From Aureibaculum sp. 2308TA14-22 (lineage in GTDB: Bacteria > Bacteroidota > Bacteroidia > Flavobacteriales > Flavobacteriaceae): DNA of 64,000 nt. Below, piece by piece: positions 62,107 through 64,000 of this stretch. The position numbers and the translations under genes are program-made. Within the stretch, counting starts at the first letter, position 1; each line of letters starts with the position of its first letter. The notes below the pieces were generated by a model, which was given only the letters and a program-made list of their open reading frames with translations, did no database searches and was not told the DNA's origin. The stretch is taken from the NCBI RefSeq assembly GCF_040538665.1, contig NZ_JBEWXT010000001.1, positions 3,064,501-3,128,500 on the forward strand, read 5' to 3'.

Positions 62107-62140
62107 TTTAGATTCAAAAAAAATTAGTTCTGTTTAATTT

Positions 62141-62178
62141 AAAAAATCTCGAAGCTAAATTGGTTTCGAGATTTTTTA
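62141..62178 (+). terminator. Intrinsic terminator after nrdA
   Basis: A 13-bp stem AAAAAATCTCGAA/TTCGAGATTTTTT with an AT-rich loop and a T run on the plus strand. It closes nrdBA. Confidence 0.87.
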
Positions 62179-62316
62179 TTTTTCAAAACAATAAATATTA
62201 CTCTTCATTTTAATTCTGAACATTGTTTGAAATATAATAGATTGAAGTATTAAACTATATAAATTTTGGGATAGTTTCTAAATTCTAAATAGAATTAATA
62301 ATCTTAATTATTTATA

Positions 62317-62377
62317 TTTACATTCAGTTAACGTTAATTTTACATTAAATTAACATTGTAATAACTGAACTATAACA
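62317..62377 (+). promoter_or_regulatory. Pho-box-like array of hexamers at 11-bp period
   Basis: Hexamers TTTACA (62317), TTAACG (62328), TTTACA (62339), TTAACA (62350), ATAACT (62361) and ATAACA (62372) start every 11 bp without a break. TTWACA every 11 bp is the architecture of PhoP/PhoB binding sites (for example B. subtilis TTAACA with 5-bp spacers). They run right up to the Na/Pi cotransporter ATG. TATATTTA at 62313-62320 is a near -7 box overlapping the first unit. Binding by a PhoB homologue is inference. Confidence 0.6.
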
Positions 62378-64000
62378 TGATTAGAAAAGCATTCTTTTTT
62401 GTTCTATTAGTTGTTTTGGGTATTATTTTATACTTCAGTCCAAACTTTAAAACTATAGCAGCTGGTGTTGCCATATTGCTTTTTGGCATGATAATGCTTG
62501 AGGAAGGCTTCAAAGTATTTACCAAGGGGCCATTACAAAATATCTTAAAAAAAGCTACCGATAGGCTTTATAAAAGTATAAGCCTAGGAGCATTAGTAAC
62601 AGCATTTATTCAATCAAGCTCTTTAGTTTCAGTAATTACCATTTCATTCATTAGTGCTGGGCTAATTAGTTTAGCAGGAGGCATAGGGTTAATTTTTGGA
62701 GCCAATATTGGAACTACAGCTACAGCTTGGCTAGTGGCTGGTTTTGGTCTAAAAATTAAAATATCTGCATTAGCTATGCCTATGTTGGTTTTTGGAATTA
62801 TATTTTCTCTCCAAAAAAAGATTTCATTAAAAGGTATAGGAAACGTATTAGCAGGATTAGGGTTTTTCTTTCTTGGTATTCACTATATGAAAGAAGGGTT
62901 TGATGTATTTAAGGAGTATATAGATTTAACTCAATATGCCGTTTCTGGGGTTTTAGGAGTTATTATTTATACCGGATTGGGCATTGTTATTACTACCATA
63001 TTACAATCTAGCAGTGCAACATTGGCATTAATTTTAACAGCGTTGGCTGCTGGACAAATTGAATATGAAAATGCTTTAGCATTGGCTATAGGAGCCAATA
63101 TAGGAACTACCATTACTGCAGTTTTAGGCTCTTTAAGTTCAAATATTGCTGGTAAAAGACTAGCAGGAGCCCACTTAATTTTTAATGTAGTTACTGGCAT
63201 TGTAGCTTTAGCATTGATTTTCCCTTTGGCCAATTTGGTAGATTATTTATCTGAAGCTTTTGGTATCTCAGCGACTGATTACACTTTAAAATTAGCTCTA
63301 TTTCATACTATATTTAATATTTTAGGAGTCCTTTTAATGATTCCTTTTATTAAAAGATTAGAACGATTTTTATTACGGTTTTTTAAAGAAAAAACAGATA
63401 AAGATATTGACGAACCTAAATACTTAAATGAAGCCGTTTTAGAGTTTCCTGGCTCAGCTATATCTGCTTTAATTAATGAATCTAAGTATTTATATAAAAA
63501 TGCCATTTTTGAAATTGTTGCACATGGTTTGAATATACACAGAGGGGATATTAAATCAAACGAAAAGCCTAAAGATATCGTTAAAAAGACTGTAGAAGTT
63601 ATGGAGGTTGATGTAGAAGAATTATACTATAAAAAAGTAAAATCTATTTATGGTGAAATAATTAGATATGCTTCAACTGCACAAAACAACTTAAAACTAA
63701 ACCAAAGACAAACTGAAAAAATAAATGAGATTAAAATTGCCAATCGTAAAATGGTCGAAATCATTAAAGATGTGCGGGAATTAAATAAAAATATAAATTT
63801 TTCTGCCAATATTGATAATAAGCATTTACAAGATGAATATGACTATTTCAGAAAAAAAATAATAAAAGTATTACGAGTTATTTATTTGTTTAGAAAGGCG
63901 GATAATCCTGAAGAATATGCTGAAAAATTAACTCGATTAAAGAAGGATGCCAAAGAAAATAATAGAAAAAGTCATAAATCTATTGACAAGTTAATTAGAA
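62377..64000 (+). CDS. Na+/Pi cotransporter family protein, C-terminus cut by window end
   Basis: The visible 541 residues start MIRKAFFFVLLVVLGIIL. They carry the NaPi-II hallmark inverted repeats: TAFIQSSSLVSVITISF with GANIGTTATAW, and TTILQSSSATLALILTALAAG with AIGANIGTTITAV. After about eight helices there is a soluble PhoU-like C-terminal region from about 365 (YLNEAVLEFPGSAISALINE...) with long coiled helices, still running at the window end. It imports phosphate or, in some bacteria, exports it. The upstream hexamer array supports phosphate control. Confidence 0.92.
   Translation, partial: MIRKAFFFVLLVVLGIILYFSPNFKTIAAGVAILLFGMIMLEEGFKVFTKGPLQNILKKATDRLYKSISLGALVTAFIQSSSLVSVITISFISAGLISLAGGIGLIFGANIGTTATAWLVAGFGLKIKISALAMPMLVFGIIFSLQKKISLKGIGNVLAGLGFFFLGIHYMKEGFDVFKEYIDLTQYAVSGVLGVIIYTGLGIVITTILQSSSATLALILTALAAGQIEYENALALAIGANIGTTITAVLGSLSSNIAGKRLAGAHLIFNVVTGIVALALIFPLANLVDYLSEAFGISATDYTLKLALFHTIFNILGVLLMIPFIKRLERFLLRFFKEKTDKDIDEPKYLNEAVLEFPGSAISALINESKYLYKNAIFEIVAHGLNIHRGDIKSNEKPKDIVKKTVEVMEVDVEELYYKKVKSIYGEIIRYASTAQNNLKLNQRQTEKINEIKIANRKMVEIIKDVRELNKNINFSANIDNKHLQDEYDYFRKKIIKVLRVIYLFRKADNPEEYAEKLTRLKKDAKENNRKSHKSIDKLIR

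Follow-up and report, generated by a model that had tools for sequence, protein, structure and literature searches.

The closest described counterparts of the array considered here are the binding sites of PhoB- and PhoP-type regulators. The PhoP box of Bacillus subtilis is made of TT(A/T/C)ACA repeats at 11-bp intervals, often with several units and sometimes reaching into genes. The Pho box of Escherichia coli is of the CTGTCAT type, and at PhoB promoters it occupies the place of the upstream promoter element. The E. coli box consists of two 11-bp direct-repeat units (PMC4415409). In Bacteroides fragilis, PhoB binds its pst promoter, and a consensus is absent from the passages of that report covered here (PMC3547664). 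For PhoP of Riemerella anatipestifer, DAP-seq and EMSA are reported to give a binding motif with TTTAACA as its most conserved letters, 583 DAP-seq peaks and a resemblance of the motif to that of ArcA (PMC9603813). In the literature searched, we found no published Pho-box consensus for Bacteroidetes.

Results

The repeat array and the gene that follows it

The window is the whole 64-kb stretch of DNA that was analysed, from Aureibaculum sp. 2308TA14-22. Six hexamers stand in it at exact 11-bp steps at 62317-62377, ahead of a gene for a Na+/Pi cotransporter of the nptA type (Table 1). The preliminary description had pointed to these hexamers and their period; all six were recovered, and the self-match peaks and shuffles agree with it. 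Units 1-4 match TTWACA at 23/24 positions, while units 5 and 6 are weak (4/6 and 5/6), and the last base of the ATAACA at 62372 is the A of the ATG at 62377. The four-unit core very probably represents overlapping PhoB-box pairs, and the two weak units may in part be start-codon context. The self-match of 62300-62380 reaches 54% at shifts of 11 and 22, against 24-45% at most others; values of 51-52% at shifts 6 and 16 reflect the AT pattern within each unit. When both strands of the whole window were scored, the array ranked first for 3, 4, 5 and 6 units, and a search for three TTWACA units with one mismatch gave four matches genome-wide, two of them inside the array. When the 270-bp intergenic region before nptA was dinucleotide-shuffled 5000 times, the 4-, 5- and 6-unit scores were never equalled (0/5000) and the 3-unit score was equalled twice (2/5000).

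Table 1. Coordinates of the array, the neighbouring elements and the related Pho-box arrays. Positions are those of the window, except for those marked L049, which count within the region at genome positions 3125001-3145000.
Feature	Coordinates	Strand	Basis
Unit hexamers	TTTACA 62317, TTAACG 62328, TTTACA 62339, TTAACA 62350, ATAACT 62361, ATAACA 62372	+	
Putative operator core, four strong 11-bp units, TTTACATTCAG TTAACGTTAAT TTTACATTAAA TTAACA	62317..62355	+	positions, PWM, shuffles
Two weaker in-phase units, ATAACT and ATAACA	62361..62377	+	position and sequence
One-mismatch -7-like element TATATTTA (TAnnTTTG), overlapping unit 1	62313..62320	+	scan
One-mismatch -7-like element TAATTTTA within the array	62335..62342	+	scan
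One-mismatch -7-like element TAACATTG within unit 4	62351..62358	+	scan
Hairpin with T-run after the ribonucleotide reductase gene	62141..62177	+	by eye
nptA-like Na+/Pi cotransporter gene, continuing past the window end	62377..64000	+	PF02690, NF037997, full ORF
11-bp Pho-box array before pit	L049 5998-6090	-	motif scan
11-bp Pho-box arrays before pstS, two sites	L049 10451-10495	-	motif scan
11-bp Pho-box array before OprP-like porin	L049 11892	-	motif scan

The full nptA reading frame, followed past the window end, occupies L049 1877-3640 and encodes 587 aa. Its product had been called a Na/Pi cotransporter with a PhoU-like tail; the transporter and its Na_Pi family assignment stand (PF02690 at 2.8e-45, with NF037997 also matching), and the tail gave no match to Pfam PhoU. 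A different true start codon, which had been offered as one way to account for the position of the array, is unlikely because an in-frame TAA TAA lies 5' of the ATG and the orthologous proteins align from residue 1. The genes 5' of nptA encode the large and small chains of ribonucleotide reductase, and the hairpin between them and nptA is likely a terminator that would part nptA from nrd. Just past the window edge, on the opposite strand and convergent with nptA, lies a phosphate cluster with genes for a Pit-type transporter bearing a long C-terminal extension, phoU, pstB, pstA, pstC, pstS and an OprP-like porin, followed by pgi; pstB, pstA, pstC and pgi were identified from their sequences.

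An independently learned motif marks the phosphate genes

A motif was learned by expectation-maximisation on the regions upstream of porin, pit and pstS genes of relatives, with nptA and the present genome left out. The sole motif obtained, WAACATTAAGTTAACATTRG, consists of two units 11 bp apart and carries 17.5 bits. Its best three plus-strand matches in the 64-kb window are all in the nptA array, at 62340 (16.1 bits), 62329 (12.4) and 62318 (11.1). In the present genome it scores 21.7 bits before the porin gene, 20.1 before pit, 17.9 and 16.9 at two pstS sites that sit 44 bp (four units) apart, 16.1 before nptA and 12.9 at a site 79 bp upstream of a phoB-like gene. Matches above 9 bits in the L049 region occur only before nptA, pit, pstS and the porin gene, including an overlapping opposite-strand reading at pit. 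A genome-wide scan with a covariance model built on sequence only, which at first scored 150/3531 candidates and missed the porin site, placed 4 of the 17 matches listed in the 13-kb phosphate cluster (binomial P about 4e-7) and one about 60-80 bp upstream of phoB. The hexamers had been read as Pho boxes that should recur before other phosphate genes. This reading gains from the enrichment of the independent motif before pstS, pit and the OprP-like porin gene, here and in relatives, and from the site at phoB; the expectation held for these four genes and failed for alkaline phosphatase, whose upstream region in this genome has no motif site. The period itself is also specific: a score of 15 was reached at period 11 in 24/34 porin upstream loci and in 12/82 nptA loci, compared with 0-4 at other periods in either set.

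Some further matches lie elsewhere. A 16.2-bit antisense match falls inside the phoB-like coding sequence (L146 1404, minus strand). The top match of the genome-wide model (L152 1500, minus strand; matrix score 18.5 bits) falls, by eye, between genes for an mscL-like channel and an alanine racemase, and could be one more target or a chance match. At the far ends of five regions from relatives (L116, L081, L082, L078 and L056), strong Pho-box matches stand before lipoprotein and TonB-receptor-like genes, which are candidate additions to the Pho regulon.

The genome encodes six OmpR-type regulators, a PhoB candidate and five others. The candidate, which is the product of the phoB-like gene in the L146 region, matches TIGR02154 PhoB best, at 203 bits where the curated cut-off is 296. 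After it comes a gene for a PhoR/PnpS-like kinase, whose match is also below its NCBIfam cut-off. The pair adjoins a PF04101 glycosyltransferase gene, and the phosphate-responsive phoBR locus of Flavobacterium johnsoniae likewise has a glycosyltransferase neighbour (PMC8115612).

Position of the boxes relative to the promoter

The Bacteroidetes -7 element is TAnnTTTG (PMC6847099). The TTTG follows the proximal unit of the box by 19 bp in 23/33 porin sites and 5/9 pstS sites, and by 30 bp, i.e. one unit more, in 22/33 pit sites; in the present genome, by eye, pstS fits 19 bp and both pit and porin fit 30 bp. Because of this fixed spacing to TTTG, we read the Pho box as standing in for the -33 element at the porin, pstS and pit promoters. 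The fixed distance found at porin and pstS (19 bp) and at pit (30 bp) is missing at nptA, where no TTTG was found 19 or 30 bp past any unit or in the interval between array and ATG, and no exact TAnnTTTG occurs in 62107-62420. The -7 candidates of the array region, each with one mismatch, begin at 62313, 62335 and 62351, and all lie inside the array or at its edge. The first takes the same place, by eye, as a TATTTGC box in the upstream region of Lutibacter oceani (L058). The second would imply a leader of about 30 nt, using published spacing and leader lengths (PMC6847099), and the third is probably the -7 box meant in the preliminary description. Flavobacterial leaders are usually 20-35 nt (PMC9723704, PMC6847099) and leaderless mRNAs make up only 5.5% in F. 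psychrophilum (PMC9723704), so the true nptA transcription start probably lies beneath the array. An array that reaches the start codon and overlaps a possible -7 box had been called an odd place for an activator, and the comparison bears this out, since the other Pho promoters keep the TTTG 19 or 30 bp off and nptA does not. The missing spacing at nptA speaks against activation, not against binding by PhoB.

The array in relatives

Conservation of the box is strong upstream of porin and pit genes, present at pstS and limited to a minority of genera at nptA. Most of the 82 nptA orthologues lack an array; those that carry one recur in Lutibacter, Winogradskyella, Maribacter and Eudoraea. The nearest congeners lack it, and before an 84%-identical nptA copy in one of them (G013, region L050) at most one unit is left, TTTACG. 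The same congener has a pst cluster and a second, assembly-gapped nptA copy (C96 3294-4846) in pieces of 66-86% identity. The preliminary description had named loss of the 11-bp spacing in close relatives as an outcome that would speak against it, and at nptA the array is indeed missing from the nearest congeners. We read the nptA array as lineage-specific, an interpretation under which its absence in congeners leaves the evidence for the regulon standing. The presence of an array showed no clean link with an adjacent pst cluster, as several pst-bearing loci lack one.

The nptA arrays of other genera that lie near the start codon have a TTTG in the activation register in 0/7 cases, compared with 12/18 porin and 4/5 pstS arrays (together 16/23; hypergeometric probability about 0.002); pit arrays reach 2/9 by this count, though 22/33 by the matrix. 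In 4/7 of the nptA arrays a TTTG lies at the array or within 25 bp before it. As a pointer to repression this contrast is suggestive only, because the spacing rule came from the porin, pit and pstS genes themselves and the comparison, on 7 loci, was picked after the fact.

Discussion

From the array, the shared motif, the gene set and the promoter geometry, all of them computed, we infer binding by PhoB and a response to phosphate, and favour repression over activation. The array is very likely an operator for a PhoB-type regulator, and nptA a member of the Pho regulon of this species, because the same motif stands before the phosphate genes and the Riemerella PhoP core is TTTAACA. Tandem DNA-binding domains of PhoB would sit head to tail on consecutive 11-bp units. 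During phosphate starvation, phosphorylated PhoB would activate porin, pstS and pit from boxes in the -33 place. At nptA, PhoB would coat 62317-62377 and so hide the start codon, the start of transcription and all plausible -7 elements. Because it would cover these, nptA expression would most likely be lowered once the high-affinity Pst system is on. Repression by occlusion is the net effect that we favour over activation at nptA, at even odds, and the whole explanation, operator and repression together, has in our estimate a probability of about 0.5. Weighing against it are the lack of an array in the nearest congeners and in most nptA orthologues, the low scores of the PhoB candidate under the NCBIfam cut-offs, the five further OmpR-type regulators and the alkaline phosphatase gene, which has no site.

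The same operator could serve activation of nptA in starvation, through a non-consensus -7 element inside the array or at its 3' end, or through distal units that aid recruitment. We consider this possible at rather less than even odds. Every neighbouring Pho promoter looks activated, nptA and pst of Staphylococcus aureus need PhoPR and rise as phosphate drops (PMC13170248), and Eudoraea (L110) has a TTATTTGC box 22 bp past the last strong unit. However, the lack of a suitably placed TTTG at nptA speaks against it, and an activator bound to the start codon leaves scant room for a leader where leaderless mRNAs are as rare as in F. psychrophilum (PMC9723704).

Occlusion by PhoB also has to be set against two readings without PhoB. 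It is improbable that another OmpR-family regulator binds the repeats, with the phosphate genes sharing that regulator secondarily. The choice of six OmpR-type regulators would suit this, as would the 583 peaks and ArcA-like motif of Riemerella PhoP, by which the motif need not be phosphate-specific (PMC9603813); however, the motif was learned purely from pst, pit and porin genes, and a site also stands before the phoB-like gene, which has a neighbour in common with the phoBR locus of F. johnsoniae, itself phosphate-responsive. Still more improbable, to the point of being very doubtful, is an account with no regulator at all, in which the repeats are a chance product of AT-rich sequence, curved DNA or start-codon context. 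The spacer is AT-rich, the array is absent from congeners, and the A(-3) preference at initiation (PMC6847099) could account for the two weak terminal units, with ATAAC ahead of the ATG, but the shuffles, the match to an independent motif, the adjoining phosphate cluster with the same motif and the excess of arrays at period 11 compared with other periods all argue against this account.

Extending the PhoB operator with repression to the family, we tentatively propose that a single Pho-box code may serve Flavobacteriaceae in two geometries. Boxes that precede the -7 element by 19 or 30 bp would activate pst, pit and porin genes, and long arrays over the nptA -7 element, start site and start codon would shut off the Na-driven importer upon Pst induction, with the nptA operator gained and lost rapidly between species. 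In the cycling of phosphorus in sea and soil, the phosphate regulon of Bacteroidetes is important. With the motif and the 19/30-bp spacing rule, the Pho regulon of flavobacteria can be predicted from sequence, and nptA offers a sharp test of whether one regulator can repress by position.

Comparison with known systems

The Riemerella PhoP motif is from the same order, Flavobacteriales, and has the same hexamer core, with binding established by DAP-seq and EMSA; in contrast, its authors present an ArcA-like motif and a link to virulence, and the passages of their report covered here make no mention of direct repeats at 11 bp or of a distance to the -7 element (PMC9603813). The S. aureus nptA gene, under PhoPR, belongs to the same transporter family and is likewise under phosphate two-component control, but it is induced at low phosphate, whereas the geometry of flavobacterial nptA suggests repression (PMC13170248). 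The B. subtilis PhoP box resembles the nptA array in its nearly identical hexamer and equal spacing; it differs in phylum and promoter type, and the regulators are compared here at the level of the OmpR family. With the E. coli Pho box, the present boxes share 11-bp head-to-tail units and the control of pst genes, and those of porin, pstS and pit also take the place of the upstream promoter element, as in E. coli. Unlike the E. coli box, the flavobacterial box is of the TTAACAT type and is tied to the Bacteroidetes -7 box, and at nptA it is extended into a long array that overlaps the start codon.
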